Shown piece by piece: positions 95-63,352 of a DNA stretch of 64,000 nt (position 1 is the first letter of the stretch; each line of letters starts with the position of its first letter). Below the pieces are notes generated by a model. The model ran no database searches. It had not been told where the DNA came from and saw only the letters and a program-made list of their open reading frames with translations. This DNA comes from Branchiostoma floridae. Taxonomy: Eukaryota > Chordata > Leptocardii > Amphioxiformes > Branchiostomatidae. Location of the stretch: positions 29,339,110 through 29,403,109 of the forward strand of contig NC_049983.1 in the NCBI RefSeq assembly GCF_000003815.2, given 5' to 3'. A program made the translations under genes and the position numbers.

Positions 95-3000
95 CTTGAC
101 ATAAGCGCAGACCTTCCTTAAGGAGTGCAGGTGACAGGTGAACCAGCGCAGGTAGATCTGCAGGTCGTCAGGTGTGAGCTGGCTGCAGGGCTGGGCGGGG
201 TTACCTGCCAGGAGCGCCTCCCGAACCACCGACAGCCGCTGGGCTCGCTCCAGGGTATCCCGGTACTCCGACATGATCTGGCTACAGGGGGGACACAGGC
301 ACACATTACCTAAAACCTTACACTTAACATCTAACATCTAACCCTGACACCTAACCCTAACCTAATATCTAACCCTAAACCTGACCACCGCAAGCCGCTG
401 GGCTCGCTCCAGGGCGTCACAGTACTCCAACATGATCTGGCTACAGGACAGACACAGGCACACATTACCACCAAACAGCAAATGCCAACATAAGTCCCAT
501 ACCTAACATCTAAGTTGCAAACCCTAACCTAACTCCTACCTTACATCTAACCCTAACCCTAACCTAACACCTAACCTTAACCCTTACACCTAACACTAGC
601 CTAACATCTAACTTTAAACCTCACAGCTGAAAGCTGTTTCGCTCACTCAAAGGCTTCCCGGTACTCTAATATGACACAGGCACACGTTACCTAACATCTA
701 ACCCTAACCTAAGTCCAGAATAGTGCATGTATGTACTGTCTCAGTGGTAGTGTGGGTACATGTCTAATATGGTACATACTCAAGCCTGCTGTGGTAGTGA
801 GGGTACATGGTCTCCATCACGTTGGTGTGTCGACAGAAGCGCTTCCAACGCAGCATGTGCATGTGCTTACACTGGACCAGCTCCTGGATTCGGTCCAGGT
901 AAAACTGAAACAGCAGGAGACATGTGCACATTATTACACTGGACCAGCTCCTGGACTCTGTCCAGGTAAAATTGAAACAACAGGAGACATGTGCACATTA
1001 TTACACTGGTCCAGCTCCTGTATACGGTCCAGGTAAAACTGAAACAACAGGAGACATGTGCACATTATTACACTGGACCAGCTCCTGGATACGGTCCAGG
1101 TAAAACTGAAACAACAGGAGACATGTGCACATTATTACACTGGACCAGCTCCTGGATTCGGTCCAAGTAAAACTGAAACAACAGGAGACATGTGCACATT
1201 ATTACACTGAACCAGCTCATGGATCCGTTCCAGGTAAAACTGAAACAACAGGAGACATGTGCATGTGCTTACACTGGACCAGCTCATGGATCCGTTCCAG
1301 GTAAAACTGAAACAACAGGAGACATGTGCACATTATTACACTGAACCAGCTCCTGGATTCGGTCCAGGTAAAACTGAAACAACAGGAGACATGTGCACAT
1401 TATTACACTGAACCAGCTCATGGATCCGTTCCAGGTAAAACTGAAACAACAGGAGACATGTGCACATTATTACACTGAACCAGCTCATGGATCCGTTCCA
1501 GGTAAAACTGAAACAACAGGAGACATGTGCACATTATTACACTGAACCAGCTCATGGATACGGTCCAGGTAAAACTGAAACAACAGGAGACATGTGCATG
1601 TGCTCACACTGTACCAGGGAATATGCAATTGTGAACACTGAAACATGTGCATGGTATAACACTGAACCAGAAAACATGTGCACCAGTTTTCCTCTCGCGC
1701 ATCTGTTTCTCTCCCGCGCATCTGTTTCTCTCGCGCATCTGTTTCTCTCCCGCGCATCTGTTTCTCTCCCGCGCATCTGTTTCTCTCCCGCGCATCTGTT
1801 TCTCTCCCCTGCATCTGTTTCTCTCAACGGCATTCTGGTGCTTTCTTCTTCAATGGCGCATCTGTTTCTCTCTCGCGCATCTGTTTCTCTCCCGCATCTG
1901 TTTCTCTCTGTACCTGTTTCTCTCCCACGCATCTGTTTCTCTCTTGCGCATCTGTTTCTCTGCCGCGCATCTGTTTCTCTCCCGTCATCTGTTTCTCTCC
2001 TGCGCATCTGTTTCTCTCCCGCGCATCTGTTTCTCTCCCGCGCATCTGTTTCTCTCCGGTGCATCTGTTTCTCTTCCGCATCTGTTTCTCTCCCGCGCAT
2101 CTGTTTCTCTCCCGCGCATCTGTTTCTCTTCCGCATCTGTTTCTCTCCCGCGCATTTGTTTCTCCCCCGCGCATCTGTTTCTCTCCCGCTCATCTGTTTC
2201 TCTTCCACATCTGTTTCTCTCCCGCGCATCTGTTTCTCTCGCGCATCTGTTTCTCTTCCGCATCTGTTTCTCTCCCGCGCATTTGTTTCTCCCCCGCGCA
2301 TCTGTTTCTCTCCCGCTCATCTGTTTCTCTTCCGCATCTGTTTCTATCCCGCGCATCTGTTTCTCTCGCGCATCTGTTTCTCTCCCGCGCATCTGTTTCT
2401 CCTGCGCATCTGTTTCTCCTGCGCATCTGTTTCTCTCCTGCGCATCTGTTTCTCTCGCGCATCTGTTTCTCTCGGGCATCTGTTTCTCTCCCGCACATCT
2501 GTTTCTCTCTCTCACACCTGTTTCTCTCCCGCATCTGTTTGTTTGTTTGTTTAATTGCGATCTCCATTAGTGTACATCATAAAATCATGCCACTACTCTT
2601 CCTGGAGTCATAATAATAAAAATAAATGAAATACATGAAATGCAAAAGAAACAACTTAACATCAAAAGCGGATAATTAGCGTAAAATAATAAGCAAAATA
2701 ATAAGCAGAGGTCAGAGGTCAAAATAAAGAAGTGATCATACATAACGAATAATAAATAGCAGAAGAAGTTAACTTAATTGATTGAAACACAATCCAATCA
2801 AAAGTGTACTAATAACACAACATAAATATATAACTTAGATGTACTGAAATATAAAAATCATTACCACCATGTGCTCAGGGGTTGTCTTTTGTCTCGTGTT
2901 TTCGCAAGCTCTTTTATCCTAGATTTGAACTCAATGTTGTTGTATGATGTCGTTGTGTTTGGCAATGTGTTATAGGTTTTGATGCATCTGTAGCCAAATG

Positions 3001-6000
3001 TCCTTGTTTTAGCGTTTGTTTTGGGTTTTGATTGAGTGAATGCTCCTCTAGTAGACAGCCTAGTGTGGTGCTCATGTGTGGATTGAATTGTTTGTAATTG
3101 CTTGAAGATGCATTGGGGTTGCCTTTCCTTAACAATTTTGTGGAATGTACATACAGTATTTGTGAAGAGTCTTTCTTTAACGGTTTGCCACTTTAACTGC
3201 ATGTGTAGGTCTTCCAGGTTGCTGTCAAAGGGCTTGTTTGTGGCCAGGCGAGCAGCGCGATTCTGGACCACCTGAAGACCATCTATGTGTGTCTGTGGTG
3301 CAGAGGATAGCAGCACTGAGCCGTAGTCCATGTGTGACAAAACCAGAGCCTGAATAACAGATCTCAATGTACTTTTTGTGAAGTATTTCCTGTGTCGTCT
3401 TATTGTGGCTAGTATGCCTGCCATTTTATTCTTCATTTTGTCAATATGCGATCCCCATGTGAGACGTTGGTCTATAGTGAGACCTAACAGTTCAGCCTGT
3501 TCTACATGTGTAATGTCTGTTCCATCTATTCTTAGTTCTAATTTGGGATTACTCTTTAGTTTAGCATCTGTTTCTCTCTCGGGCAACTGTTTCTCTCCCG
3601 CGCATCTGTTTCTCTCCCACGCAATTCTGTTTCTCTCTCGTGCATCTGTTTCTCTCCCACGCAATTCTGTTTCTCTCTCGTGCATCTGTTTCTCTTTCGC
3701 GCATCTGTTTCTCTCGCGCGCATCTGTTTCTCTCGCGCGCATCTGTTTCTCTCCCGCGCATCTGTTTCTCTCGCGCGCATCTGTTTCTCTCCCGCGCATC
3801 TGTTTCTCTCCCGCGCACCTGTTTCTCTCCCGCACACCTGTTTCTCTCCCGCACACCTGTTTCTCTCCCGCACACCTGTTTCTCTCCCGCTTACCTGTAA
3901 TGAAAGTAACCTGGTGCATCAGCAGAGGCAAGCTCTCTGCTGTGTGTATGTACCTGATTGTGTTAACACCTGAAACACCTGAGTGTTTACCTGGTGCAGC
4001 TGCATGACTGTGTTCACACTGAATGAGAGAACACCTCTAAGTGTTTACCTGGTGCATCAGCAGTGGCAGGCTCTCTGCCGTGTACATGTACCTGATTGAG
4101 TTGACACCTGAGAACACCTGAGTGTTTACCTGGTGCAGCAGCAGGGGCAGGCTCTCTGCTGTGTGCTCCTTCTTCAGACATCCTTCCATTTCCTCCTGCA
4201 GCACATCTGCTTGGACCAGGAGTGGGCGTGCACCCGTAACCTAGCAACAAGAGACACATAAGATGCTGGAGGCAGCGTCACAGACATGCATGTAATTTGT
4301 AATAAGGAACGTGCCATGATGAATGTAGGGTGTGGCAATCTTCTGTGAGATTTACAATTAGAATGGCTGGGCCCATAATTACCAAATCTAATGAAATAAT
4401 TCACTGAAATTTGCTAAGACTTCTCAAATACATAAAACCAGACTGTGTGCCCTTTTGCTGTTTTCTGGTGAAAATCTAACCAGAATTTTGCAGTAATGTA
4501 CAAAGATGAGCCTTGTCTAGAAGCCTATGAAATAGTCTGGTTTAAAACATGATGCTGATACATGATTGTACATAAATAAATAAATAAATAAATACGAGAA
4601 TTGTGGAAGTTTCATATAGAACCTACATGTAGGCCTAAAGAACCTACTCTACATGTACTGTAAGCATTAGCAAGACTTGTTACCTGCAGAGCCTTGTCGA
4701 AGTTTAGTGTAAAACCTACATGTAGGAACCTACAGTAACTGTAAACATTAGTGAGTTGTTACCTGCAGAGCCTACAGTAACTGTAAGCATGAATAAGCCG
4801 TTACCTGCAGAACCTACAGTAACTGTGAACATTAGTAAGTTGTTACCTGCAGAGCCTTGTCGAAGGCCAGCTGCCGCTCCCTGCGGAAGTGCTCATGACT
4901 CTTTGGCCACGGGACGGAACTGCAGGGAAACAGTGAGACAGTACACGTGTGTTTACAGTCTGCAGGGAAACAGGGAACAGTGTGAAACAGTACATGTGTG
5001 TTTACAGTCCATGGGTGGGAGGGAACTGCAGGGAAACAGGGAACAGGGCAGGTCTTTAAGTTTAAGTAACACCCTGGGTTTGAAAAGCTTTATCATATTA
5101 TCTCTATAATTAGTTATTACAGCCCAGGAAAGAATAAGAAATGGCCACAGCAAGTTTCAGTGTCATCAAACCCAGATCTGAAAATGCACTCTTCCTGGCA
5201 AATAAATCAGCAGAAATGGCTGTCATGAAACATGATAGAAGCTCACTTGCATGGTACAGTACACAAAATGATGTGATTAGAGTCTATGGGCAGCGTGCAC
5301 GACTTTGTACATGATGCTCTTGCTGGGTTATTTAGAGAGCAGTTATACCTGATACACGTACTTGTGCTTACAGTGTACTGTAAGTCGTACAGTGCACCTC
5401 ATATGTTTGTTTCTTTGTTTATTGTTTACCCTGCCGGGCTGTCCAGAGAGCAGTTCATTCTCCTCATGTCTGATACATGTACACATTTGTTTGTTTGTTT
5501 GTTTGTTGTTTACCTGATGCTCCTGCTGGGCTGCCCTGTCAGTAGTTCGTTTTCCTCGATGTCTGATACACGTACATGTTTGTTTGTTTGTTTGTTTGTT
5601 TATTGTTTACCTGATGGTCCTGCTGGGCTGCCCTGTCAGCAGCTCGTTCTCTATGTCTGATACACATACATGTTTGTTTGTTTGTTTGTTTGTTGTTTAC
5701 CTGATGGTCCTGCTGGGCTGCCCTGTCAGCAGCTCGTTCTCGATGTCTGATACACGAACATGTTTGTTTGTTTGTTTGTTTGTTTGTTGTTTACCTGATG
5801 CTCCTGCTGGGCTGCCCTGTCAGCAGCTCGTTTTCCTCGATGTCTGATACGTTTGTTTGTTTGTTTGTTTATTGTTTACCTGATGCTCCTGCTGGGCTGC
5901 CCTGTCAGCAGCTCGTTTTCCTCGATGTCTGATACGTTTGTTTGTTTGTTTGTTTATTGTTTACCTGATGCTCCTGCTGGGCTGCCCTGACAGCAGCTCG

Positions 6001-6765: not shown

Positions 6766-6784
6766 CAGTCATGATCGTCACCTC

Positions 6785-9515: not shown

Positions 9516-9559
9516 ATAGGCGGGTTCTGTGCTGAACACCGGCACACAAGTCACCGTAC

Positions 9560-25553: not shown

Positions 25554-25585
<32 letters not shown>

Positions 25586-55500: not shown

Positions 55501-58500
55501 ATAATTGGTACATAATTTCTTTTTTATTATACGCGCAAGAACCGTAGCTACAGACTTCCAAGGAGCTTCTTGGTAAGACTTTCACGGGTAGAGACCGCCC
55601 GCCCCTTGCTAATTAGAAAACACAGTAGGAAGTCACGGTAGATTGGAGACGGCACGTGCCTATAGCCGTGTTAGGGGTACCATTTCTGGTAGAATCTGAC
55701 ACTGTTCCAACGCAGTCCGGTAACCTTTGACCCATTTTCTCACAACACTGCCGCGCTGCGCTGCGCTTTCGCCGGCCCGTCCTCTCCCCGTCCCCTACAG
55801 CCGCGCTTGCACGGACGCGCTGCGCTTNNNNNNNNNNNNNNNNNNNNNNNNNNNNNNNNNNNNNNNNNNNNNNNNNNNNNNNNNNNNNNNNNNNNNNNNN
55901 NNNNNNNNNNNNNNNNNNNNNNNNNNNCAGGTTCCTTACAGCCGTTAGCGCTTTTAACCATGTTCTCCTGGCTAGCAGATCACGGCGAAACAGCACTGTG
56001 GTGGGCGTGATCCGAAACAAGTGGGAAAGAAGTGCGGGCGGTGTCAATTAACGCCACGGGTGGGGCAATTGAAAATGAGACATTTTCTCGGCAGCGCACA
56101 TGTTTCAGTTTCTGCTCGAAATGTCGCGTTTCTCCCGGCCAGGGGGGCATCCAAAATGAGACAAATTCCCGGCAGCGTACATGTGCAACTTTCTGCTCCA
56201 AATGTCGCATTTTTTCCAGCCAGGGGGCCAGTCAAAACTGAGACATTTTGGAAATGTCTCAAATCCTTAATCCGGCAGATTAAAATTGTCTCATTTTGGC
56301 CGAATGTCTCATTTTTGAGCTGGTAGTGGAATGAGCTGGATGTTGGATCCGTTGAACGGGTGGAACCTGGACTTCAGTCCTGGGCTATGCCGTGCCGTGA
56401 ATTTGATCTGCTTTCTCGGTACGATAAGAGCTTCTACACGGCTTGACGATGAGATTGAAAAGTGTTCGGGATAGATAGCCCAGAGAAAGGAAATGGCCGA
56501 ATGTGGTATGGAAATAACATTATAATGATTTAGCAAATTGTTGAGTAATTTTTTCGCCCGTAGTGAAGGATCGGAGACTAAAGTTTTTTGTATGTTTGCC
56601 CAGACTGACAGTTACATATTTCAAGTTTCTACATTGTATCTACAAAATATCGGCAACCTGCATGTTGTAATGTTTGTCGAAGTTATTCTTCAACTATGTA
56701 AATGTGTCAAGATATTTGCCATGTATACAGTCGGTCCGAAAATTATGTTCTTCATGTCCAACTGCCGAGGACTCTGCAATTACTTTACTCTGTGATGGAC
56801 ATCCAAGAAAGAAAGCCGTTACACTACAGTACTAGTAAAGATTGGAGGTTGAAAACATTGAATTTTTTACAATAAAAATGAACGCTTATGTCACTGTTCT
56901 TTTGTCATACTTGTTCACTAAATTACTTATCAGTGCAGTCAGGCTGTTTACGTTGCTATCCAAGAAAGAAAGCCGTTGCAGTTGACGCTAGATCGGAGTT
57001 TGTAGGCACTGAATTAATTTAAGTTAAAATTGAAATAAATGTTACTGAATAAAACTTTTCATCACAGCAAAATAGTGTTTTATTGTATATACAATTTGCA
57101 AATAAACAGGAAAATCCTCTTAGTCTTCATTCTTGGTACAGCTGGGAGGGTCCTCCATATGTAGGTTTGTCCTCAACCACAAAGCGCAGCCTGATTGGTC
57201 CAGCCGCCTCTTGTTTTCCCGCCATGGTACCAGCTGTGCACTCCCCAAGGGGCGGAGCCGGCTGTTCTCCATAAAGCCCCATTTTCCAGGGGGGTGAAAA
57301 ACAATAATTTCCCCTTCAATTTAGGGGTCAAATTGTGTCATTTGGGTGAAAAATATAAAAGATCTTCAAAATAGGCCTAAAGAAACAACACTTCTGATGG
57401 AATGGAATTATTTTCAAGATATGCCTCAGCATTGGTTTACTCAGACCTTAACTACGAACAACTCCACACTGACATAGGTAAGTCTTAACTATGAGCAACT
57501 CTACACCGACATAGGTAAGTCTTAACTATGGACCACTCTACACCAACATAGGTAAGTCTTAACTACAAACAACTCTACACTGACATAGGTAAGTCTTAAC
57601 TACGAACAACTCTACACCGACATAGGTAAGTCTTAACTACAAACAACTCTACACTGACATAGGTAAGTCTTAACTATGAACAACTCTACACTGACATAGG
57701 TAAGTCTTAACTATGAGCAACTCCACACTGACATAGGTAAGTCTTAACTATGAACAACTCTACACCGACATAGTTAAGTTTTAACAATAAGTAACTCTAC
57801 ACCAAAATAGATTTTTACCGAGAACTACTCTACACCAAAAATATACTAGGTAAGGTTGACTTTAAAAAGTCTACAACAAAATTATGTAATGTGAATGGAA
57901 CAATGCTGAAAGTGAATGTTTTTGCACGTGTACCTGAATTTTTTGCACTAACTGATTCAATACGATAGATGAAATGTCATGCAAATAGATGAGTTTCATT
58001 TCTTGTGTTCTATTTTGGCAGGACAGTGGACTTTTTTCCTGTACCAAATTGTATTGAATGTTGTTTGTTTCACTTTCAGAACAGAGTATAGAAGATGCTC
58101 ACACGAAGATCGGGGACTGTAAACAGGAACTCCAGCATGCAAAGAGAGTCCGCAAGAACAGACAAGGTAAAACCTCATCTCCATAATTAATTATATAGTC
58201 TTCCTGACTCTCAGTCAGATTGTATGGTATGGAAAACTAATTTGACGTACCTGCACCGTGATAACGTTTTCTATGCGTGTTATGGACCAAGTGATAACTT
58301 GCCGGTTCTACTTGTATGACGCGGTCTTAATAAATAGAAAGATCAACTGAACCCCACTCTCACTGCGGCGCGGTCGAAAATCCATTTTTTTCTCCAAGGA
58401 CACTGAAATTAGCAATTTCAGTAATCATTATAAATGTTTGTTTTCTCGGATGGGTATGAAATAGATACAGTACAACATGCTGTATTCCGCATCACCCTCG

Positions 58501-61500
58501 GTCCCAGCCCTCCCGCGGGTTGGATCACCCTCCAGCCTTTGGGCAATCGAGCCACTGTCGGACTGGTACCTCAGGTGATACGGAATACACCTTGTTGTAG
58601 TCTATATATCAAGCAGAAAATTAAGGTGCAGAAATGACCTTGACCCTTTTTCTTCCTGTAGAGTACGACGCTCTTGCCAAGGTCATCCAGCAGCACCCAG
58701 ACAGACAGCAGACGATGAGGTACCTTCTGCTTTCACTTTCACTCCTCCTGCTTTCACTTCCACGTTTCACTTCTTATGTTCAACAACTTTCACTTTTGCT
58801 CCTTGAATCTTACTACTTTAAAATTCACTTTTTACTCCTTAGCTTTGGGCATTTTCATTTTTCACTACAGTATTACGTATCTCTAACCATTTTCACCTTA
58901 CACTACTTACATGTATGTCTAACCACTTTCCCTTCTCACTACTTAAGTCTAACCACTTTCACTTTTCACTCCTCATCTCATTTCACTTTTCACTCCGTTA
59001 GTCCAACTTAAGGCCTTAAGATACTCCCCAAGGAGTTAGGAAGGGCTTCCTTCTATCTCCTTCCCTACATGCAGTTGTACTGTAACAGTTGTAAGAAGTT
59101 ATGTGCAGCGTCCGCAGTAATCTCAGAGAAAGTGTAGTTGTACTGTAACAGTAACAGTTGTAAGAAGTTATGTGCAGCGTCCACAGTAATGTCAGAGAAA
59201 GTGTAGTTCTACTGTAACAGTTGTAAGAAGTTATGTGCAGCGTCCGCAGTAATCTCAGAGAAAGTGTAGTTCTACTGTAACAGTTGTAAGAAGTTATGTG
59301 CAGCGTCCACAGTAATCTCAGAGAAAGTGTAGTTCTACTGTAACAGTTGTAAGAAGTTATGTGCAGCGTCCACAGTAATCTCAGAGAAAGTGTAGTTGTA
59401 CTATAATAACAGTTGTAAGAAGTTATGTGCAGTGTCCACAGTAATCTCAGAGAAAGTGTAGTTGTACTGTAACAGTTGTAAGAAGTTATGTGCAGCGTCC
59501 ACAGTAGTCTCAGAGAAAGTGTAGTTGTACTGTAACGGTTGTAAGAAGTTATGTGCAGCGTCCACAGTAGTCTCAGAGAAAGTGTAGTTGTACTGTAACG
59601 GTTGTAAGAAGTTATGTGCAGCGTCCACAGTAGTCTCAGAGAAAGTGTAGTTGTGCTGTAACAGTTGTAAGAAGTTATGTGCAGCGTCCGCAGTAATCTC
59701 AGAGAAAGTGTAGTTGTACTGTTACAGTTGTAAGAAGTTATGTGCAGCGTCCACAGTAATGTCAGAGAAAGTGTAGTTCTACAGTTACAGTTGTAAGAAG
59801 TTATGTGCAGCGTCCACAGTAATCTCAGAGAAAGTGTAGTTCTACAGTTACAGTTGTAAGAAGTTATGTGCAGCGTCCACAGTAATCTCAGAGAAAGTGT
59901 AGTTGTACTGTAACAGTTGTAAGAAGTTATGTGCAGCGTCCGCAGTAATCTCAGAGAAAGTGTAGTTGTACTGTAACAGTTGTAAGAAGTTATGTGCAGC
60001 GTCCACAGTAATCTCAGAGAAAGTGTAGTTCTACTGTAACAGTTGTAAGAAGTTATGTGCAGCATCCACAGTAATCTTAGAGAAAGTGTAGTTCTACTGT
60101 AACAGTTGTAAGAAGTTATGTGCAGCGTCCACAGTAATCTCAGAGAAAGTGTAGTTGTACTGTAACAGTTGTAAGAAGTTATGTGCAGCGTCCACAGTAA
60201 TCTCAGAGAAAGTGTAGTTGTACTGTTACAGTTGTGAGACGTTATGTGCAAGGTCCACAGTAATCTCAGAGAAAGTGTAGTTGTGCTGTAACAGTTGTAA
60301 GAAGTTATGTGCAGCGTCCACAGTAATCTTAGAGAAAGTGTAGTTCTACAGTTACAGTTGTAAGAAGTTATGTGCAGCGTCCACAGTAATCTCAGAGAAA
60401 GTGTAGTTGTACTGTAACAGTTGTAAGAAGTTATGTGCAGCGTCCACAGTAATGTCAGAGAAAGTGTAGTTGTACTGTAACAGTTGTAAGAAGTTATGTG
60501 CAGCGTCCACAGTAATGTCAGAGAAAGTGTAGTTGTACTGTAACAGTTGTAAGAAGTGTAGACTTTCAAGTTCACTTTGAAGTGTTTTTATTTCTTCTAG
60601 TAAGGAATCCGATGGGGTGTCTGTCTCATCCAATTCCTTAGATAACTCACTAATCTGCTTAGTTAAATCTGCTTCTTTATTTGAATACATTTTATATCTA
60701 TTTGATGCAAATTTGATAGTATGTCCCCTTAAGCAACACTTAAACGTGTCCCACACTGTGAGCGGGTCACTTGTCCCATTATTGTTCTCAAAAAATTCTC
60801 TAATAAATACCTCGGTTTCTTTTACAAATGTAGCATCTTCTAATAAAGTTTGATTAAACTTCCAATAATTTTTACCTTTAGAGAATGTTGTTGTTTGAAC
60901 AGAAATGCAGATGATATTATGGTCAGATTTCAATCGTCCTGCAATTGTTGCACTGACAACATTGGTGAGAAGAGAAAAGGATATCAAAAAATAATCAATA
61001 CGGCTCGCTTGGTGACGCCTACGCCAGGTAAATTTTACGGTATTTTTATGTTTGAAACGCCAAACGTCAACTAAATCTAGCTCTAATACCATGTCTAAGA
61101 TCTTTTGCTGAGCACGCGGATGATATTCTGTTGGATTGCGTCCTGCCCTATCAAGCATAGTATTTTGGACTGTATTAAAATCGCCTGCGATAATTATATT
61201 TTCGCTGCATTCTTCTAAAGTTGCGATCTTATTTACAATGTCTTCAAAAAAGGCAGGGTCGTCACTATTTGGAGCGTACAAGTTAACTAAGCATACTCGT
61301 GTATCGTGAAGAGAGACATCTAGTATTAACAGTCGGCCGTCATTATCTTTAATACAATTATGCACAACAAACTTTGTATTTTTTCTAAATAATATCATGA
61401 CTCCACGCATATTACTAGTACCGTGGTTAAAAATAATCGTGCCATCCCAGTCGTTCACCCAAGTCTTTTCATCTTTCACTGTCGAGTGAGTCTCTTGAAT

Positions 61501-63039
61501 ACAGTTGTAAGAAGTTATGTGCAAGGTCCACTGTAATCTCAGAGAAAGTGTAGTTGTACTGTAACAGTTGTAAGAAGTTATGTGCAGCGTCCACAGTAAT
61601 GTCAGAGAAAGTGTAGTTGTACTGTAACAGTTGTAAGAAGTTATGTGCAGCGTCCGCAGTAATCTCAGAGAAAGTGTAGTTGTACTGTAACAGTTGTAAG
61701 AAGTTATGTGCAGTGTCCACAGTAATCTCAGAGAAAGTGTAGTTGTACTGTAACAGTTGTAAGAAGTTATGTGCAGCGTCCACAGTAATCTCAGAGAAAG
61801 TGTAGTTGTACTGTAACAGTTGTAAGAAGTTATGTGCAGCGTCCACAGTAATGTCAGAGAAAGTGTAGTTGTACTGTAACAGTTGTAAGAAGTTATGTGC
61901 AGCGTCCACAGTAATCTCAGAGAAAGTGTAGTTGTACTGTAACAGTTGTAAGAAGTTACGTGCAGCGTCCACAGTAATCTCAGAGAAAGTGTAGTTATAC
62001 TGTAACAGTTGTAAGAAGTTATGTGCAGCGNNNNNNNNNNNNNNNNNNNNNNNNNNNNNNNNNNNNNNNNNNNNNNNNNNNNNNNNNNNNNNNNNNNNNN
62101 NNNNNNNNNNNNNNNNNNNNNNNNNNNNNNTACAGTTGTAAGAAGTTATGTGCAGCGTCCACAGTATTCTCAGAGAAAGTGTAGGCTCTACTGTAACAGT
62201 TGTAAGACGTTATGTGCAGTAATCTCAGAGAAAGTGTTTTCTGTCCTCAGGAGACTTGAAGAGCTGCAGAAGGAACTTAAGACACTGAAGGACTCCAGGG
62301 AGGGTCTGGAGGCCAAGGTAAGGAACCCAGTAGATTATTGTTACTCTGTATTCATCAACACAAATTTATTGTTGTGTTAAAGTTACAGTAGGCATAGATT
62401 CATCTTCTAATTTCAGCTCCAAAAGGTCAGTGATGCTTCCTAATCCTCACCAAGTGTTACCCACAGTTTCATTGTTGTCATCTTGCTAGATATCTTGTTG
62501 ACATGTTCGAGACCCATGGAAACACTTTGGTGTGGCCTAAATGTCCCAGGCACAGATTTTTCATGCTGATACATTATTAGATCTTGAAAGTTGATTAGAT
62601 GCCGTTGTATTGACATGTTTGGTGAAGAACTCCAACATGAAGCGGTCAGATCAGCTTGCTCATTGCTTTTCATTTAAGGTCAGGATTACACCAGATAAAT
62701 CCATGAACATAATCCAGATCCATAAGACAGTATACAAGTCATGTATATCTTTAAATGCATAACAACTGTGTGATCCTTTCAGATGGAGATGCGCCAGAAA
62801 CAGTTCCATGTGTTGGTCACCTCCATCCATGAGTTGCAGGCCATGCTAGAAGGTAAGTCATGTCCTCTTTGTTCCTGTTGTTGTCATGGTGATGAATTAC
62901 GGTTACCAAACCTCACGTTTGTGTTTACTGCAGTTGTGCTTGTTGGGCACAAAGTAATTTTTTTCTTCTTTTCTTCCTGATAGAAGATGAGAAGGATGAG
63001 GATGAAGAGGAACAGATGGAGACAGGCTCCAGCACCTAG
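10215..63039 (+). CDS. THOC7: THO complex subunit 7 (8 coding exons, 202 aa)
   Basis: The exons are 10215-10236, 17962-18082, 18547-18674, 58080-58166, 58662-58719, 62251-62317, 62783-62852 and 62984-63039. Phases agree at every junction and the total is 609 nt including TAG. The protein runs [21 protein letters not shown], then [29 protein letters not shown], a coiled coil ([18 protein letters not shown]), the diagnostic [17 protein letters not shown] and QHPDRQQT. It ends [18 protein letters not shown] and an acidic tail ([11 protein letters not shown]). This matches THOC7, a coiled-coil subunit of the THO/TREX complex that couples transcription to mRNA export in the nucleus; human THOC7 is about 204 residues. 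Intron 1 hosts an antisense fibrinogen-domain gene. Intron 3 (39,405 bp) hosts a TTAA-flanked giant insertion, and intron 5 a 63-bp minisatellite. Exon 3 has a tandem NAG acceptor. Confidence in identity is very high; noncoding ends are undefined. Confidence 0.96.
10237..11203. other. THOC7 intron 1, first part
   Basis: No exon is recognised. A palindrome at about 10519-10564 has arms TTTATTCGACGTCCCTATTA and its inverse with one mismatch, which would form a hairpin of about 20 bp. Confidence 0.5.
11204..11760. mobile_element. TTAA-flanked MITE with AGGGGCATTCCA termini
   Basis: The left end reads TTAA then AGGGGCATTCCACTCC. The right end reads TGGAATGCCCCT then TTAA. The 12-bp inverted termini and TTAA target duplication point to a piggyBac-type nonautonomous element of about 550 bp. 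It contains a perfect 20-bp-arm hairpin at 11601-11658 (CAGTTGCTCCACATGCCTCA and its inverse) whose loop holds AAAAGCATGCTTTT, itself a palindrome. Confidence 0.7.
11761..12443. other. Gene-free stretch 3' of the fibrinogen-domain gene
   Basis: No exon or clear repeat is recognised. A CTCGAGTAGG-like TE signature is absent. A poly-G run occurs near 11945. It probably includes the 3' UTR of the minus-strand gene ending at 12444. Confidence 0.4.
12444..17521 (-). CDS. Secreted fibrinogen-related protein (ficolin/FREP-like), 6 coding exons
   Basis: Minus-strand exons are 17521-17399 (41 codons), 16471-16349 (41 codons), 16046-15977, 14854-14735, 14055-13839 and 12801-12444. All phases fit, giving about 336 aa if exon 3 joins exon 4 directly. 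Exon 1 begins [20 protein letters not shown], a classical signal peptide. Exon 2 is a coiled coil ([18 protein letters not shown]). Exons 4-6 form a complete fibrinogen C-terminal domain: [42 protein letters not shown], the calcium-site-like [27 protein letters not shown] and SMKVRPNN. Such proteins are extracellular and usually bind sugars or act in innate immunity; the ligand here is unknown. The gene is nested antisense in THOC7 intron 1. Exons 4 and 5 are bordered by repeats of their own edges, and a 9-copy mini-exon array lies between exons 3 and 4. Confidence 0.92.
12914..12957 (-). pseudogene. Diverged partial copy of fibrinogen-gene exon 6 start
   Basis: Minus-strand acceptor TTCTAG is followed by sequence coding [12 protein letters not shown], beside the genuine exon 6 start (acceptor [18 protein letters not shown]). 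It shares the acceptor and about 12 residues, then stops matching. It is either a fossil of a duplicated exon or an alternative acceptor. Confidence 0.6.
13010..13860 (-). repeat. Minisatellite of fibrinogen-gene exon-5 end plus donor (about 22 copies)
   Basis: Units of about 20-55 bp contain TTCTCACCTGAAGGTGTTATA, which on minus is exon end AACACCTTCAG plus donor GTGAGAAC. I count 22 copies including the genuine donor at 13839. Each retains an intact CAG/GTGAGA donor. Unit lengths vary through internal loss of the CTCTGCGTACG segment or gain of TTGCGTATGC. Confidence 0.9.
14056..14560 (-). repeat. Tandem copies of fibrinogen-gene exon-5 acceptor and exon start
   Basis: Three extra copies follow the genuine acceptor at 14056-14057. 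Each carries about 90 bp of exon 5 ([20 protein letters not shown] on minus), the acceptor and a TTAACTAACCAG-rich spacer. They lie near 14115-14205, 14255-14345 and 14430-14520. The last is the most diverged. Confidence 0.85.
14810..15190 (-). repeat. Tandem copies of fibrinogen-gene exon-4 acceptor and exon start
   Basis: Units of about 95-115 bp carry GTAACCACGGAGATACAGCT (exon 4 start on minus, [11 protein letters not shown]) with its acceptor CTGTGACAG and upstream intron. Genuine acceptor 14854; extra copies have acceptors near 14954, 15062 and 15155. Confidence 0.85.
15205..15250. repeat. (CA)n microsatellite
   Basis: A short ACACAC-rich tract in the intron between fibrinogen-gene exons 3 and 4. 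Confidence 0.7.
15350..15970 (-). repeat. 70-bp array, each unit holding a 14-nt mini-exon with both splice sites (9 copies)
   Basis: On the minus strand each unit reads CCAACACTCCCCACAG, then GGACAAGACACCAG, then GTAAGAC. That is an acceptor, a 14-nt exon-like segment and a donor. There are nine units. Six keep the CACAG acceptor and three (near 15512, 15652 and 15722) read CACTG. It lies between fibrinogen-gene exons 3 and 4. Skipping all units keeps frame, and so does including six or nine (84 or 126 nt). Whether any are used is unknown. Confidence 0.75.
16195..16312. repeat. TGTGTATGTGG microsatellite/minisatellite
   Basis: Short repeats of GTGTGTATGTGGT in the intron between fibrinogen-gene exons 2 and 3. 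Confidence 0.75.
16520..16822 (+). mobile_element. 3' end of a non-LTR retrotransposon
   Basis: The sequence ends GGGCTCCCTTGG...GAAGGGACTACCCT...(AATA)n. This terminal signature is common to CR1/L2-type 3' ends in invertebrates. No coding sequence is left. It lies in intron 1 of both THOC7 and the antisense fibrinogen gene. Confidence 0.55.
16823..17340. other. Gene-free intronic stretch
   Basis: No exon is recognised. A palindromic TTTCCGTCAATTGACGGAAA lies at about 17214-17235 with related CGTTGACGG and GTTGACGGA nearby, suggesting a small decayed foldback element. Confidence 0.4.
17858..17886 (+). pseudogene. Extra copy of THOC7 exon-2 acceptor
   Basis: GCAGATGACATCATCCGCAA matches the acceptor and first bases of exon 2 (17958 onward) about 100 bp upstream, then diverges into a stop (CGGCTGATGATG). 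It is part of the pattern of duplicated exon edges. Confidence 0.75.
18083..18155. repeat. Short tandem repeat after THOC7 exon-2 donor
   Basis: Three to four units of about 21 bp of CCCTTAACCTTAATCCCTGA type start a few bases after the donor at 18083. Confidence 0.7.
18240..18546 (+). repeat. Copies of THOC7 exon-3 acceptor and exon start
   Basis: Three extra copies, near 18258, 18396 and 18470, carry CTGTGCAGCGGC plus GCCACCTATCAGCGCAT (coding ATYQRM). Each is followed by a CGGTACTGC...TTTTAAATCATTTCCC spacer. The genuine acceptor is 18546/18547. The first copy has lost the upstream AG context (GTTCAGTGGGG). Confidence 0.83.
18640..18790 (+). repeat. 37-bp minisatellite of THOC7 exon-3 end plus donor, left block
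   Basis: Units carry CAACTCTACACTGACATAG (YEQLYTDI) followed by donor GTAAGTCTTAACTA. Donors after 18674 (genuine), 18705, 18742 and 18779 are all strong GTAAGT. The array is interrupted at TTAA (18787-18790) by the giant insertion and resumes at 57448. Confidence 0.92.
18791..19724. other. Outer left arm of the giant insertion, promoter-like motifs
   Basis: Three full CRE palindromes (TGACGTCA) lie at 18917-18924, 18928-18935 and 19483-19490. A YY1-like AAGATGGCGG start follows at 19511. The ORF from 19513 is only 23 codons ([15 protein letters not shown] to a stop at 19584). GC-rich sequence surrounds it. It looks like a remnant promoter and first exon; no product is recognised. Confidence 0.35.
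19725..21583 (+). repeat. Left inner inverted arm of the giant insertion
   Basis: It is matched in inverse orientation by about 54815-56400. Shared segments include CAACGGATCCAACAT, a 75-bp tandem pair (GCGACATTT(G/C)GAGCAGAAA...), GATCACGCCCACCACAGTGC, AAACAAGCTTAGCGATGATC and CTGGCGTTTTCAACCACACC. The left arm carries about 310 extra bases (about 19797-20110) and a 17-bp hairpin insert (GGACGCTATTGTCAAATAGC) absent from the right arm. Confidence 0.8.
21584..22913. other. Cargo stretch without recognised gene
   Basis: No coding sequence is supported. It contains an (ATA)n tract near 21858, a poly-A run near 22550 and no clear TE ends. Confidence 0.4.
22914..23013. repeat. Foldback hairpin, about 40-bp arms
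   Basis: GCCTGGTATCCAGC...TCTCTTCTGTCCTCTC is followed after a short AT loop by GAGAGGACAGAAGAGACT...GCTGGATCCCAGGC. It would fold as a strong stem-loop, typical of a small foldback element. Confidence 0.6.
23014..24280. other. Cargo stretch without recognised gene
   Basis: No coding sequence is supported. A TTCTCCAAGCAGAT motif at about 24234 also occurs as AATCTCCAAGCAGATCCTAC at 27650, 42588 and 43588 and inverted near 54180. It is probably the terminus of a recurring transposon family. Confidence 0.4.
24281..25154. mobile_element. MITE-like element with about 35-bp terminal inverted repeats
   Basis: The left end AGGCCATGTTGATTTGATTA...GGATAACATCC is matched in inverse by the right end (GGATGTCATCC...AATCAACGTGGCCT). 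The right half (about 24804-25154) recurs at 45210-45575. Open frames inside (e.g. ending [15 protein letters not shown]) are translations of the terminal repeat, not genes. Confidence 0.6.
25155..27830. other. Cargo stretch without recognised gene
   Basis: No gene is supported. Sequence at about 25265-25400 is an inverted, diverged copy of 31735-31870, sharing CCGGCGTTTTCTTGAATTG-like and GTCGACGCTCGGGC-like blocks. A GT/G-rich low-complexity run lies at 25556-25587. Confidence 0.4.
27831..27900 (+). mobile_element. Small LINE fragment
   Basis: GGTAAGCTACGACTCTATGAAACTTGTAAAAC resembles GGTAAGCTGAGGTTCTATAAAACTTGTAG within the degraded LINE at 34267, so it is a short relic of the same family. 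Confidence 0.4.
28589..29095 (+). repeat. About 500-bp direct repeat, copy A
   Basis: It shares GCATGCTATCGTGTATTGTT, CCGTTCCGACTCCGAGAACG, GGTCGGCCGACGTGTCGGCA and the end CCAAAAAGG(C/G)AGAAAAG with copy B at 31232-31716, with scattered substitutions and indels. The pair encloses a degraded LINE. Confidence 0.75.
29096..30540. other. Cargo stretch; hammerhead-like core at 30245-30280
   Basis: No gene is supported. At 30245 the plus strand reads CTGACGA, stem AGACAGC/GTTGTCT with loop GGAT, then GAAACGTC. This is the second copy of the hammerhead-core-like motif. Confidence 0.4.
30541..31220 (+). mobile_element. Internally deleted LINE reverse-transcriptase relic
   Basis: Translations show [19 protein letters not shown] (RT block with catalytic Asp) and [11 protein letters not shown]. 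They then jump to [11 protein letters not shown] and [16 protein letters not shown]...[10 protein letters not shown]. The segment with the catalytic YADD between these blocks is deleted and stops are present. The 3' end (GTAGATGTAGAT) follows at about 31215. It is a dead copy. Confidence 0.75.
31232..31716 (+). repeat. About 500-bp direct repeat, copy B
   Basis: See copy A at 28589-29095. It begins directly after the LINE 3' end, so it may be target or element sequence duplicated around the LINE region. Confidence 0.75.
32285..32470 (+). repeat. Dispersed about 180-bp repeat, copy 1
   Basis: It starts AGTACAGGATAGCAAATCCA and ends TTTATTGCGCGTAC. Nearly identical to 35751-35926, and a more diverged copy is at about 34937-35110. 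All are in the same orientation, around the LINE relic at 33366-34640. Confidence 0.75.
33366..34640 (+). mobile_element. Degraded LINE (RT to C-terminal region)
   Basis: It includes [19 protein letters not shown] (the catalytic YADD block), [30 protein letters not shown] and further downstream [17 protein letters not shown], with stops and frameshifts between blocks. It is a dead non-LTR element; the clade was not determined. Confidence 0.75.
34937..35110 (+). repeat. Dispersed about 180-bp repeat, copy 2 (diverged)
   Basis: Diverged copy of the 32285 and 35751 repeats (AGTACACGATAGCAAATCC...TTGCGCGTACATAG). Confidence 0.6.
35751..35926 (+). repeat. Dispersed about 180-bp repeat, copy 3
   Basis: Near-identical to copy 1 at 32285-32470, in direct orientation about 3.5 kb downstream. 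Confidence 0.75.
35930..37940. other. Cargo stretch downstream of the Tnp2-type gene
   Basis: No coding sequence is supported. It probably contains the 3' UTR of the minus-strand gene ending at 37941. AT-rich simple sequence lies near 37352-37440. Confidence 0.4.
37941..44081 (-). CDS. EnSpm/CACTA-type transposase-like protein (Tnp2 + DUF4218), 8 exons, 5' incomplete
   Basis: Minus-strand exons with GT/AG borders are 44081-43860, 42225-41997, 41659-41536, 41101-41004, 40490-40298, 39667-39470, 39253-39092 and 38639-37941. Exon 1 carries the Tnp2-type block [20 protein letters not shown]...YIFDWPA...[14 protein letters not shown]. Exons 6-7 carry the DUF4218 pattern [19 protein letters not shown], then [20 protein letters not shown] and [16 protein letters not shown]. 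Exon 8 has an acidic run and [11 protein letters not shown]...MKWYGIG, like the C-terminal domain of plant CACTA proteins. These proteins cut and paste DNA elements in the nucleus. The N-terminal part of Tnp2 was not found upstream, so the gene is truncated or its first exon lies farther away. Introns carry a MITE (41315-41508) and helicase debris. No in-frame stop was seen within the listed exons. CACTA termini were not found. Confidence 0.8.
41315..41508. mobile_element. Foldback MITE rich in TTCGCGGT motifs
   Basis: The left arm (TACTGTAAAT...TTCGCGGTAGTTTTATG...TTTTCGCGGT) is matched inversely by ACCGCGAACTTAAAACCACC and CTACCGCGAAAATAAAT. It lies in intron 3 of the Tnp2-type gene. This CGCGGT foldback pattern is widespread among animal MITEs. 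Confidence 0.65.
42585..42670 (+). repeat. Transposon-terminus-like motif, copy 1
   Basis: AATCTCCAAGCAGATCCTAC followed by GGTGCCATAAGAT and AAAGCTGGCC. It recurs in direct orientation at 43588-43672 and in short form at 27646, enclosing the helicase fragment. Confidence 0.55.
43165..43403 (-). pseudogene. RecQ-like DEXH helicase fragment
   Basis: One minus-strand frame reads [18 protein letters not shown], then [11 protein letters not shown] (Walker A, GxGKS) and RLVVVVSPL (motif Ia-like). This is the order at the start of RecQ-type helicases. A start codon at 43370 ([16 protein letters not shown]) is in another frame, so a frameshift separates the start from the helicase motifs. No later motifs follow. 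The upstream sequence is CpG-rich. It sits in intron 1 of the Tnp2-type gene on the same strand. Confidence 0.5.
43536..43780 (+). repeat. 46-bp repeat in three copies
   Basis: GTTTGATACTATACATTACG followed by CACCGTGGATCTGGTTGGAGATTA occurs at about 43537, 43680 and 43736. The first copy adjoins the second copy of the CTCCAAGCAGATCCTACGG motif. Confidence 0.8.
44130..45209. other. Stretch between the divergent TE genes
   Basis: No exon is recognised. It should hold the promoters or missing first exons of the minus-strand Tnp2-type gene and the plus-strand Tudor-like gene. Confidence 0.35.
45210..45575 (+). mobile_element. Half copy of the 24281-25154 MITE
   Basis: It starts TATTGCCAATTCTCAAGTTT and ends in the same terminal repeat (GATGTCATCC...ATCAACATGGCC). 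It corresponds only to the right half of the complete element, so it is truncated at the left. Confidence 0.7.
45686..46821 (+). CDS. Two-exon protein with charge-switching 9-aa repeats and Tudor-like C-terminus
   Basis: Exon 45686-45856 (57 codons from [17 protein letters not shown], ending PRWAQIR before GTGAGA) joins in phase to 46165-46821 (acceptor [23 protein letters not shown]). An alternative start of the first exon after the TTTACAG at 45742-45748 is possible, with more exons upstream. The middle is about a dozen 9-residue repeats in three blocks: acidic MVTEEPQDG-type, basic [18 protein letters not shown], then EVTKEPQDG. The tail [20 protein letters not shown]...VNIRFMVAK and [15 protein letters not shown] looks like a Tudor/SH3-like fold seen in TE-encoded proteins. 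It is divergent from the Tnp2-type gene and may be its partner ORF. The function is unknown. Confidence 0.65.
46775..47290 (+). repeat. Array derived from the gene's stop-codon region, rich in ATTTGCAT octamers
   Basis: Units resemble the end of the preceding coding sequence (CCGGAAATACTTCTAAGACT, then TCATTTGCATAATC). The octamer ATTTGCAT occurs eight times between 46782 and 47265, the first inside the coding sequence ([10 protein letters not shown]). The octamer is the classic POU-domain binding site, but its use here is unproven. Confidence 0.7.
46868..47962 (+). repeat. About 1.1-kb block duplicated at 49446-50540
   Basis: From CACCCAGTCCTGTTATAAC to GGCTCAGTCATTTA the sequence recurs almost base for base as a contig bounded by N on both sides. 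Visible differences cluster at the contig's left edge. Confidence 0.85.
47340..47760 (+). repeat. AT-rich minisatellite (TGACATGTGATACTATATTTAG type)
   Basis: Units of about 35-50 bp with TT(G/C)ACATGTGATA followed by CTATATTTAGGCTAA. About ten imperfect units. The whole block is repeated at 49925-50340. Confidence 0.75.
47935..48005 (+). other. tRNA-like (SINE-type) sequence
   Basis: It contains an A-box-like TGGCTCAGTC and a consensus B box GGTTCGATTC within a good T-arm (CCCGGG TTCGATT CTCGGG). Acceptor and D stems do not pair, so it is not a functional tRNA. Its position at the edge of the duplicated block fits a tRNA-derived SINE head. Confidence 0.4.
48433..49345 (-). CDS. Transposon-type protein fragment, possibly Helitron-associated peptidase-like region
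   Basis: An open minus-strand frame runs into the gap at 49346. Its upstream part reads [13 protein letters not shown], then [23 protein letters not shown] and FEVVPVQ. I associate this pattern with the C76/OTU-like peptidase region found beside Helitron/Helentron proteins. Downstream is a lysine/glutamine-rich stretch ([30 protein letters not shown]) of the type preceding the helicase part of such proteins. The last 60 residues look unrelated, and a second frame opens there, so a frameshift or splice site near 48640 is likely. The catalytic Cys region would lie inside the gap. Identification is tentative. Confidence 0.4.
49346..49445. other. Assembly gap (100 N)
   Basis: A run of N. It truncates the open frame at 48433-49345 and starts the duplicated contig. 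Confidence 0.99.
49446..50540 (+). repeat. Second copy of the 46868-47962 block, gap-bounded
   Basis: Almost identical to 46868-47962 and ends at exactly the point where N begin. Differences concentrate at the first about 100 bases (AACCCAGGTTAAGG versus AACTCATGTTAATG). It most likely is a redundant or allelic contig, though a true duplication is possible. Confidence 0.85.
50541..50690. other. Assembly gap (150 N)
   Basis: A run of N immediately after the duplicated block. Confidence 0.99.
50691..51042 (+). repeat. 350-bp direct repeat, copy A
   Basis: GATTTA(G/A)CGACAACTCCTC through the GC hairpin GGGCGCCTGCGGCGCCCCGG. Inside is a 56-58-bp tandem pair (GTTTATTTGAAGGGCT...AAACGCACGGTACATT). 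Copy B is at 51641-51990. Confidence 0.85.
51392..51606. mobile_element. Foldback element whose arms are 12-bp tandem repeats
   Basis: The left arm GGGTATTTACCGGAATAACC...(CCGGAATAACCC)n is matched in inverse by (GGGTTATTCCGG)n...GCTAAATACCC. The arms are about 50 bp, 51392-51442 and 51556-51606. The decamer CCGTCAACGC lies a few bases outside both ends (51376 and 51611) and may be the target duplication. Confidence 0.65.
51641..51990 (+). repeat. 350-bp direct repeat, copy B
   Basis: Near-identical partner of 50691-51042. The foldback at 51392-51606 lies between the copies. Confidence 0.85.
52275..52374. other. Assembly gap (100 N)
   Basis: A run of N directly upstream of the zinc-finger fragment. 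Confidence 0.99.
52375..52672 (+). CDS. C2H2 zinc-finger protein fragment (3' exon)
   Basis: The frame contains CPFPLC-x12-H-x4-H ([11 protein letters not shown]...EHLRRTH) and CPGC-x12-H-x5-H (FCPGCGTLY...[10 protein letters not shown]), two tandem C2H2-type fingers. It ends [21 protein letters not shown] and a stop. A possible acceptor (TGTATTCACCAG) lies at 52386-52397, so this may be a last exon. The 5' part is lost in or beyond the gap. Such fingers bind DNA and often occur in TE proteins; the family was not identified. Confidence 0.6.
52680..53595. other. Cargo stretch without recognised gene
   Basis: Open frames here are short and without motifs. No clear repeats were found. Confidence 0.35.
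53596..53772. mobile_element. Foldback element, 56-bp arms
   Basis: The left arm (TAGTCTCTACCAGACTCCGG...GGAACAAATAGAG, 53596-53651) is matched almost perfectly in inverse by 53717-53772, with a loop of about 65 bases. It is a young-looking MITE or foldback. Confidence 0.75.
53773..54540. other. Cargo stretch; inverse transposon-terminus motif
   Basis: ATCTGCTTGGAGATTAG near 54179 is the inverse of the CTAATCTCCAAGCAGAT motif seen at 27646, 42585 and 43588. The GC-rich open frame on minus (54192-54494) has no recognisable motif. Confidence 0.35.
54560..54798 (+). mobile_element. LINE 3' end with (CATT)n tail
   Basis: It ends CCTGGTGTGGCAAAAATGTA then AATAAAGGTCTTCATTCATTCATT. A polyadenylation-like signal followed by an ATTC tail is typical of CR1/L2-type 3' termini. 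No coding part is left. It abuts the right inner arm. Confidence 0.55.
54815..56400 (-). repeat. Right inner inverted arm of the giant insertion
   Basis: Inverse partner of about 19725-21583, interrupted by a 100-N gap. It lacks the about 310-bp extra block present in the left arm. Open frames in both arms are shadows of this repeat. Confidence 0.8.
55828..55927. other. Assembly gap (100 N)
   Basis: A run of N inside the GC-rich part of the right inner arm. Confidence 0.99.
57127..57225 (-). CDS. Short ORF in the outer right arm (32 aa), doubtful
   Basis: The minus strand reads ATGGCGGGAAAACAAGAGGC ([20 protein letters not shown]...) to a stop at 57127, with an AATAAA-like signal about 45 bases further on and GC-rich sequence upstream. 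It is not recognised. It could be a remnant first exon or a chance ORF. Confidence 0.2.
   Translation of the reverse strand: MAGKQEAAGPIRLRFVVEDKPTYGGPSQLYQE
57448..57855 (+). repeat. 37-bp minisatellite of THOC7 exon-3 end plus donor, right block
   Basis: Eight units with intact ACATAG/GTAAGTCTTAA donors follow the right TTAA. About three degenerate units then lose the donor (TAGTTAAG, then ATAGATTT). It continues the left block at 18640-18790. Confidence 0.9.
58471..58600. mobile_element. About 130-bp MITE in THOC7 intron 4
   Basis: The ends TACAACATGCTGTATTCCGC and, in inverse, TACAACAAGGTGTATTCCGT form terminal inverted repeats of about 25 bp around a GC-rich core. Confidence 0.6.
59060..60556. 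repeat. 63-bp minisatellite in THOC7 intron 5, left block (about 24 copies)
   Basis: Units of 57-63 bp contain GTAAGAAGTTATGTGCAGCG, TCCACAGTAATCTCAGAGAA and AGTGTAGTTGTACTGTAACA. The unit matches the sequence directly upstream of the exon-6 acceptor (62190-62237). A 63-bp period is divisible by three, so long meaningless minus-strand frames are open ([19 protein letters not shown] and [17 protein letters not shown]). Confidence 0.9.
60557..61501 (-). mobile_element. LINE apurinic-endonuclease fragment inserted in the 63-bp minisatellite
   Basis: The minus strand codes without stops for an exonuclease-endonuclease-phosphatase-type domain of L1/Tx1-like elements. Motifs in order are IQETH (catalytic Glu), [30 protein letters not shown] and [10 protein letters not shown] (catalytic Asp-His). 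A linker follows ([18 protein letters not shown]). The first about 40 residues of the domain and all of the reverse transcriptase are missing. Both sides carry ACAGTTGTAAGAAG, which could be a 14-bp target duplication or simply the repeat unit. Confidence 0.85.
61502..62230. repeat. 63-bp minisatellite, right block, with gap
   Basis: The array continues at strict 63-bp period to the gap at 62031, then two diverged units lead into exon 6 of THOC7. Confidence 0.9.
62031..62130. other. Assembly gap (100 N)
   Basis: A run of N inside the 63-bp minisatellite; the copy number is therefore uncertain. Confidence 0.99.
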
Positions 63040-63352
63040 CGCTAGATCTATGCTAGAGCATTGCTAGATACACGCCCCAGCACATAGTCCCAGAGTTATG
63101 GTTTGAGTACCTACACAGTAGCACAAGGTGTAAGGTCCTGAACCAAGTGTTAGATTCTTGCACTTTTTGTGGGATCAAGCATATAATGCTAGATACATGT
63201 CCTAGCACATCATGGTAGATGCAGACTCCAGCACCTAGCACTAGATGTAGGCCCCAGCACCTAGCACTACATGTAGGCCCCAGCACATAGCACTACATGT
63301 AGGCCCCAGCACATAGCACTAGATGTAGGTTCCAGCACATGGAGTTAGATAC
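63024..63352 (+). repeat. 26-bp repeat derived from the THOC7 stop-codon region
   Basis: The coding end GCTCCAGCACCTAGCGCTAG recurs in the 3' region as (G)CCCCAGCAC(C/A)TAGCACTA(C/G)ATGTAG. Looser copies lie at about 63073 and 63195. Four to five regular 26-bp units lie at 63220-63350. Confidence 0.8.

Follow-up and report, generated by a model that had tools for sequence, protein, structure and literature searches.

Unusually dense amphioxus mirages on the exon edges of three adjacent genes near a contig end

Do exon edges seed tandem duplications, or do they only survive them? A locus near a contig end of Branchiostoma floridae offers a single place to ask. Within the 64,000 nucleotides analysed here (the window), a first-pass annotation had listed tandem arrays on the splice and coding boundaries of three genes, in both orientations. 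It had attributed them to a mechanism that amplifies boundaries, and had pointed to a precedent at an amphioxus Adh locus. The precedent is real: tandem copies of exon edges, termed mirages, are described in amphioxus Adh3, troponin C, globins and PGBD5 (PMC3087553; PMC3902484). PMC3087553 credits the Adh3 case to Canestro et al. 2002 (its reference 68).

Three adjacent genes were rebuilt by reading their exons by hand: a DUF4549 gene (labelled CCDC162 in the first-pass annotation), a fibrinogen-C-like gene (FIB) and THOC7. Pfam and PDB matches confirm all three genes (DUF4549, 2.5e-58; Fibrinogen_C, 1.6e-73; THOC7, 4e-44), with THOC7 matching PDB chain 7apk_G at 4e-68. CCDC162 was traced 10 kb further leftward and may extend past exon 19. 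When the exon-joined copy of each edge is used, the spliced frames are open across 19 CCDC162 exons, FIB exons 2–6 and THOC7 exons 2–8. By reading, shifting the exon-2 acceptor by 5 nt lets FIB exon 1 join in frame; the reading by hand found no location for THOC7 exon 1.

Across the three genes, 26 of 60 splice edges, divided equally between donors and acceptors (13 each), lie within a local tandem array whose repeated stretch takes in 12–89 exonic nt (Table 1). TRF recovered most of the arrays, and together with the rebuilt genes these counts confirm edge arrays in each of the three genes, with both orientations represented. Edge-bearing units measure about 37–176 bp in a list of arrays split by hand. 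At 23 edges we found 97 extra copies, all of them intron-ward and none exon-ward, and 93 retain the GT or AG. The GT is intact in all 21 extra copies of the FIB exon-5 donor and all five of the CCDC162 exon-1 donor, and the AG in 9 of 10 extra copies of the CCDC162 exon-4 acceptor. Every copy in the start-codon array carries cccag/gtcgatg...ATG. Judged by its letters, this unit opens with a convincing acceptor (cccag/gtcgatg), which may be that of a 5'UTR-bearing exon.

Table 1. Tandem arrays at the locus, in window coordinates
Feature	Position	Strand	Unit and copies	Exon or remark
CCDC162 exon-5 acceptor array	220..715	-	159-bp unit, diverged, three pieces	exon 95-281
CCDC162 exon-4 acceptor array	847..1622	-	67 bp, 11 copies	exon 780-904
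19-bp GAAACAGATGCGCGGGA intronic array	1640..3900	-	19 bp	without exon edge; interrupted by retroelement-like ORF (about 2864-3560)
CCDC162 exon-3 donor array	3901..4168	-	diverged	exon 4130-4240; left border set by hand split
CCDC162 exon-2 donor array	4671..4872	-	42 bp, 3.1 TRF copies	
CCDC162 exon-2 acceptor array	4908..5045	-	about 49 bp, 2.4 TRF copies	exon 4847-4919
CCDC162 exon-1 donor array	5397..6019	-	about 85-97 bp, 6 clear copies	
CCDC162 start-codon array	6066..6769	-	units 82 and 93 bp, 8 copies	exon 1 CDS 5965-6104
FIB exon-5 donor array	13003..13876	-	28- and 37-bp units, 22 copies	exon 13839-14055
FIB exon-5 acceptor array	13967..14555	-	139 bp, 4 copies	
FIB exon-4 acceptor array	14790..15195	-	about 102-106 bp, 4 copies	exon 14735-14854
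FIB exon-3 donor array	15340..15976	-	71-bp unit, about 9 copies	exon 15920-16046
THOC7 exon-2 acceptor	17844..17993	+	2 copies, spacing 97 bp	exon 17962-18082
Array adjoining THOC7 exon-2 donor	18081..18157	+	20 bp	
THOC7 exon-3 acceptor array	18250..18583	+	about 71-78 bp, 4 copies	exon 18547-18674
THOC7 exon-3 donor array, left part	18645..18795	+	37 bp	
THOC7 exon-3 donor array, right part	57442..57810	+	9.6 TRF copies	
THOC7 intron 5 array	59065..62244	+	63 bp	holds retroelement-like insert and one assembly gap; ends 6 nt before exon-6 acceptor (exon 62251-62317)
THOC7 stop-codon region and 26-bp array	63020..63343	+	26 bp	stop 63037-63039

The copy numbers first reported were reproduced in part by TRF or scanning. 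Those for the THOC7 exon-2 acceptor, exon-3 acceptor and exon-3 donor (12 or more overall) stand, as do those for the FIB exon-5 donor, exon-5 acceptor and exon-4 acceptor and for the CCDC162 exon-1 donor, exon-4 acceptor and start-codon arrays. Four others in CCDC162 do not: for the exon-2 acceptor, exon-2 donor, exon-3 donor and exon-5 acceptor, an ungapped scan yielded 0, 2, 2 and 1 extra copies, against 3, 4, 4 and 3 copies claimed. Both exon-2 arrays are diverged, and a third extra copy of the exon-3 donor is visible by eye. The FIB exon-6 acceptor had been given two copies; the second is weak (11 mismatches in 40) and falls below our array-calling rule. The FIB exon-3 donor array was absent from the earlier list.

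The window ends 147 kb short of the end of its contig, C5 (29,550,017 bp). In five pieces lying 72–221 kb from that end, TRF arrays cover 29–49% of the sequence: 41% in L029, 44% and 29% in window positions 1–16 kb, 36% in 56–64 kb and 48.5% in L039. Coverage is 12% at 292–300 kb from the C5 end (L038), and 3.2% when pooled over 20 interior loci, including one that is entirely N. Among the contig-end loci, L030 reaches 65% and the remaining seven 0–13%, which leaves C5 and a single other locus as the main basis for the contig-end effect. Eight 2-kb end loci, 120–125 kb from the ends, gave a pooled 11.3% against the interior 3.2%. A general contig-end gradient was nevertheless rejected: P was 0.11 against whole interior loci, with L030 carrying most of the signal, and reached 0.003 only against 2-kb interior pieces, which lack independence.

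Edge arrays also occur outside the window. At L039, a second locus near the C5 end, 3 of 8 arrays have similar structures, the tally of eight reflecting overlapping TRF rows and one inverted-unit pair merged by hand. Similar arrays were found on other contigs (L009, L027 and L041). The interior sample (L009–L028) gave 31 TRF rows with a period of 10 or more and a score of 60 or more. Eight rows of period 13–18 were dropped and two L026 rows merged, leaving 22 for inspection: 21 with a period of at least 20, plus an 11-bp row that forms part of an L027 array. By reading, at least three are clear splice-edge arrays (a donor in L009, an acceptor and a donor in L027), one is uncertain (L028) and one lies at a stop codon (L022). 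In the remaining inspected arrays, reading of ORFs alone revealed no exon at an array end.

Whether edges are caught in arrays more often than by chance depends on the null: per base they are not, per array they are. Circular shifting of edges in the window gave no enrichment (11 of 32 observed, 14.5 expected, P = 0.90), and 49–50% of positions in the FIB span and the window part of CCDC162 have a local copy. Both figures favour a reading in which arrays are so dense that edges are caught by accident and then listed. We rejected the circular shift as sole null because it ignores the protection of exon interiors and because arrays seeded at edges add to intron coverage in their own right. When one unit was placed per array in collapsed genes (automatic families, three unit rules), 25 of 33 automatic arrays held a splice edge against 10.6–14.9 expected (P at most 3.5e-4), the start-codon array being scored as without one. 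Accident combined with listing bias is already disfavoured by this result, and we consider it improbable. In the hand-split list, where some units were assigned by hand, 27 of 34 arrays held an edge against 12.3 expected, a count reached in none of 200,000 simulations. All 21 hand-split arrays with units of at least 64 bp held one, counting the start-codon array and again with some units hand-assigned. Overall, the edge content of arrays in these three compact genes is about 1.5–2.4 times that of random seed placement.

The excess per array is what would be expected if R-loops, co-transcriptional nicking or exon nucleosome edges started duplications at splice junctions. The positions of array ends agree with such boundary-specific amplification: within 80 nt of edges, 24 ends lie on the exon side and 8 on the intron side, and 5 of the 7 hand-split arrays without an edge stop within 33 nt of one. 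Against it stands the lack of a per-base excess, in the window as well as in five myosin loci, where 2 of 52 exon-match ends fell in arrays that occupy 3.9% of bases. The myosin loci were compact groups hand-picked, blind to repeats, from 142 matches, and their match ends only approximate exon edges. THOC7 on its own is not significant (3 of 6 arrays with an edge, P 0.15), and unspliced coding ends are also affected, at the THOC7 stop region and, by reading, in L022. Moreover, base composition can account for part of the excess. A GC preference fitted either to non-edge or to edge arrays lifts the expectation to 15–17 (P 0.0004–0.003), and only weights beyond the fitted values remove the excess (P 0.01 at beta 8, 0.03 at 10 and 0.21 at 15). 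Since 25 of 33 still exceeds the GC-weighted expectation, a boundary-related remainder is possible.

Taken together, a boundary bias is supported at this locus, not genome-wide. The splicing- or boundary-specific mechanism proposed in the first-pass annotation is unsupported, given the absence of a per-base excess, the general minisatellite richness of the zone and the partial explanation by GC; we think it unlikely. It is likewise doubtful that exon boundaries are themselves preferred starts of duplication beyond GC and tolerance, with the longer-unit arrays (64 bp or more) arising there and flooding genes with spare splice sites.

Spare splice sites might instead be kept by selection, because splicing uses them or is buffered by them. 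Divergence among extra copies averaged 0.042 in the splice core, 0.077 in exonic and 0.075 in intronic positions. In 14 arrays the test on mean splice-core divergence gave P 0.018, and nine of these arrays had zero core divergence against 4.4 in controls (P 0.0026), although the strongest P values of this test need the post-hoc removal of one outlier, the exon-10 acceptor. An initial signal relative to the exon-joined copy (19 arrays) includes an about two-fold drop expected from the constraint on that copy. Exclusion of CpG columns weakened the mean test to P 0.066 and left the zero-divergence count at P 0.011. In other arrays (L039, L027 and L028), of which five of seven tried were scorable, the values were 0.067 versus 0.036 (P 0.91). 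Unit lengths divisible by three are near chance (14 of 34 versus 11). Selection on spare sites was dropped after the signal failed to replicate in the five further arrays, and selected redundancy appears very unlikely.

Collapsed or over-expanded repeats could also mimic arrays. The window comes from a single assembly with five N gaps, one of them in the 63-bp THOC7 array, and PGBD5 copy number varies between two amphioxus sequences (PMC3902484). According to the same source, however, the PGBD5 repeats hold up in new Illumina data, and copies at our locus differ by point changes as well as in number. In addition, a 38.7-kb insertion splits the THOC7 exon-3 donor array and is flanked on either side by copies of the donor unit, so the array predates it. 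An assembly artefact is therefore scarcely credible.

We conclude that the arrays are further amphioxus mirages, a known kind that is here unusually dense, and probably ordinary minisatellites whose unit happens to span an exon–intron or coding boundary, with no need for splice-specific machinery. Three elements of this explanation are seen directly: a stretch across the edge is tandemly repeated, with the extra copies on the intron side of the exon-joined copy; the zone near the C5 end is rich in minisatellites, so that many edges are caught in arrays; and, at this locus, arrays hold an edge about 1.5–2.4 times more often than random seeds would. The extra copies would persist because the exon-joined copy still gives the right splice site and frame. 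The modest excess at edges may arise because GC-rich exon flanks duplicate more readily. Selection may also preserve the seed copy at an edge, so that arrays could grow back or stay similar; seeds lying wholly in introns would instead decay.

In the intron-gain model, a new intron takes its donor from one duplicate and its acceptor from the other. The locus shares with this model a short tandem duplication bearing splice signals; it differs in that, save in one family, an array repeats a single edge of an intron already present. Of the 25 edge-bearing families, 24 hold a single edge, and no unit supplying both donor and acceptor of an intron was found. The remaining family holds both edges of one intron, the exon-3 donor and the exon-4 acceptor, which are joined only via the adjacent 19-bp array. 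The idea that introns arise when a proto-splice segment is duplicated in tandem is credited to Rogers in PMC3087553, which calls the mechanism of mirages unclear and proposes a tie to intron gain. Our locus is suited to asking whether spare sites get used and whether arrays yield new introns.

Human subtelomeres are enriched in VNTRs (PMC7608644), and there too minisatellites crowd near chromosome ends; the part of that report available describes VNTRs and VNTR-rich genes, not copied exon edges.

The closest comparison is with the published mirages in globin genes BflGb6 and BflGb9 (PMC3087553) and in troponin C and PGBD5 (PMC3902484), as far as the available parts of these papers describe them. 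They too are minisatellite-like tandem copies of exon–intron boundaries, at donors and acceptors, with AG or GT retained in many copies, and their units of 10–160 bp resemble ours in length. Adh3 data and globin RT-PCR suggest that normal splicing is undisturbed by mirages (PMC3087553). Published mirages were examined for splicing and for instability, both as length polymorphism and in somatic tissue, whereas the arrays here are known from the sequence of one assembly. Earlier reports of mirages treat single genes, describing one boundary apiece in two globin genes and a pair of arrays in PGBD5; at our locus a single gene has 19 of its 37 splice edges in arrays. Unlike the published cases, the arrays extend over three adjacent genes, include start- and stop-codon regions and lie close to a contig end, in a zone where minisatellites abound.

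The window occupies 29,339,110-29,403,109 of contig C5 in a 513-Mb assembly of 431 contigs, its right border lying 147 kb from the end of that contig (29,550,017 bp). Three gene models, all rebuilt by reading the sequence, have open spliced frames (from exon 2 onward in the fibrinogen-C-domain gene, FIB), and the domains of all three products were recognised.

TRF returned 66 rows in the window. A local array encloses 26 of the 60 splice edges of these genes (13 donors and 13 acceptors) when a 28-mer must recur within 1.5 kb with at most five mismatches, the exonic part inside such arrays being 12-89 nucleotides. The list of edge arrays in the first-pass annotation was mostly accurate, with copy numbers for diverged arrays somewhat above those of the scan and the FIB exon-3 donor array missed. 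Under an ungapped 40-nt rule, the extra copies around 23 edges lie exclusively on the intron side (97 versus 0), and 93 of the 97 preserve GT or AG. Array ends within 80 nt of an edge number 24 on the exon side versus 8 on the intron side. Divergence among extra copies was lower at the splice core; this effect weakened once CpG columns were dropped and was not reproduced in the five other scorable arrays, and we make no claim of constraint on spare splice sites.

Whether arrays and boundaries coincide beyond chance depends on the unit of counting. Per base, no excess was seen for the edges inside the window: copies exist for 11 of 32 edges versus 14.5 expected from circular shifts (P 0.90), since tandem arrays make up roughly half the length of CCDC162 and FIB. 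This null takes no account of protected exon interiors. At the level of arrays, 25 of the 33 automatic families include a splice edge. When each array is collapsed to one unit and seeds are scattered randomly over the shortened genes, the expectation is 10.6 with units as measured (0 of 200,000), 12.7 with units of at least 60 (P 1e-5) and 14.9 with units of at least 100 (P 3.5e-4). With arrays split by hand and the start-codon array counted as well, the result was 27 of 34 versus 12.3 expected, distributed as 20/23 in CCDC162, 4/5 in FIB (P 0.02) and 3/6 in THOC7 (P 0.15). Exons have 59% GC versus 39% in non-array intron, and GC-preferring seeds, weighted as fitted to the arrays, raise the expectation to 15-17 families (P 0.0004-0.003); weights above the fitted strength would abolish the excess (P 0.01 to 0.21). 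These array-level tests, GC weighting included, thus show that boundaries at this locus are hit about 1.5-2.4 times as often as expected.

TRF cover is 41% in the 10 kb left of the window. Among the 8-kb pieces of the window itself, the first two have 44% and 29% and the last has 36%; the five middle pieces (0-9%) fall wholly or largely within a 38.7-kb insertion. At 72-80 kb from the end of C5, in L039, cover is 48.5%, and at 292-300 kb it is 12%. L039 contains another gene, in which three of eight arrays lie on edges, one of them a donor array of ~36 copies of a 33-bp unit, and a fourth adjoins a donor. Pooled cover is 3.2% over 20 interior 10-kb loci (one all N) and 11.3% over eight 2-kb samples close to the ends of other contigs, dominated by a single sample. 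By reading, two interior loci, L009 and L027, carry clear mirages, that is, tandem copies of exon-intron boundaries. Five myosin loci picked irrespective of repeats total 27.6 kb and hold 26 exon matches. Duplication affects 2 of the 52 ends of these matches (a clear two-copy donor in L041, a weaker case in L044) versus 3.9% of bases, and these loci therefore have no excess per base.

Coordinates of genes and repeat features (window positions unless a locus is named)
Feature	Position	Strand	Remarks
DUF4549 protein gene (CCDC162 in the first-pass annotation)	runs leftward out of window into L029	minus	19 exons read
FIB		minus	6 exons
THOC7		plus	exons 2-8 read; exon 1 not located
Telomere-like AACCCT repeats	520-612		CCDC162 intron; ~210 kb from contig end
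Retroelement-like piece (look of ORFs)	2864-3560		in 19-bp array
38.7-kb insertion	18791-57447		within THOC7 exon-3 donor array
Near-identical segment pair	47067-47743 and 49656-50332		in 38.7-kb insertion, ~2.6 kb apart
Retroelement-like piece (look of ORFs)	60560-61500		in 63-bp array
N gap (one of five in window)	62031-62130		in 63-bp THOC7 array, making its length uncertain
173-bp array	L022:5021-5720		first copy seems to carry C-terminus and stop codon of open frame (reading only)
165-bp (55-codon) tandem repeat	L024:253-836		in long open frame; probably exonic
Calmodulin-like EF-hand gene	L027:1895-2935		acceptor and donor mirages (reading only)

All three insertions noticed in these genes, two retroelement-like pieces and the 38.7-kb element, are situated in arrays. 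The 38.7-kb element is bordered on both sides by TTAA, with imperfect inverted termini, as is typical of piggyBac-type elements. Inverted 81-bp arrays lie close to both its ends, and Pfam searches of eight of its ORFs gave weak sub-cut-off matches only (C2H2-like zinc fingers, FNIP_N). The array read in L022 seems to be like that of THOC7 in lying at a stop-codon region.

The statistics support a preference for boundaries at this locus, not yet genome-wide. We found no direct evidence for the splice-coupled mechanism initially suggested. The most economical account combines tolerance with a modest bias: edge duplications would be tolerated in a minisatellite-rich zone, and GC richness and selection preserving edges may favour exon edges modestly.

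A literature search, with subscription papers mostly outside its reach, returned no genome-wide test. PMC3087553 reports tandemly repeated intron-exon boundaries in a pair of globin genes, traces both the Adh3 case and the term mirages to Canestro et al. 2002, and cites two further loci. There, splicing is seemingly undisturbed, array length is variable, the copying mechanism is termed unclear, and intron gain from boundary copies is proposed. PGBD5 and troponin C are added as cases in PMC3902484. The edge arrays of the present genes are a true, extreme example of this known phenomenon.
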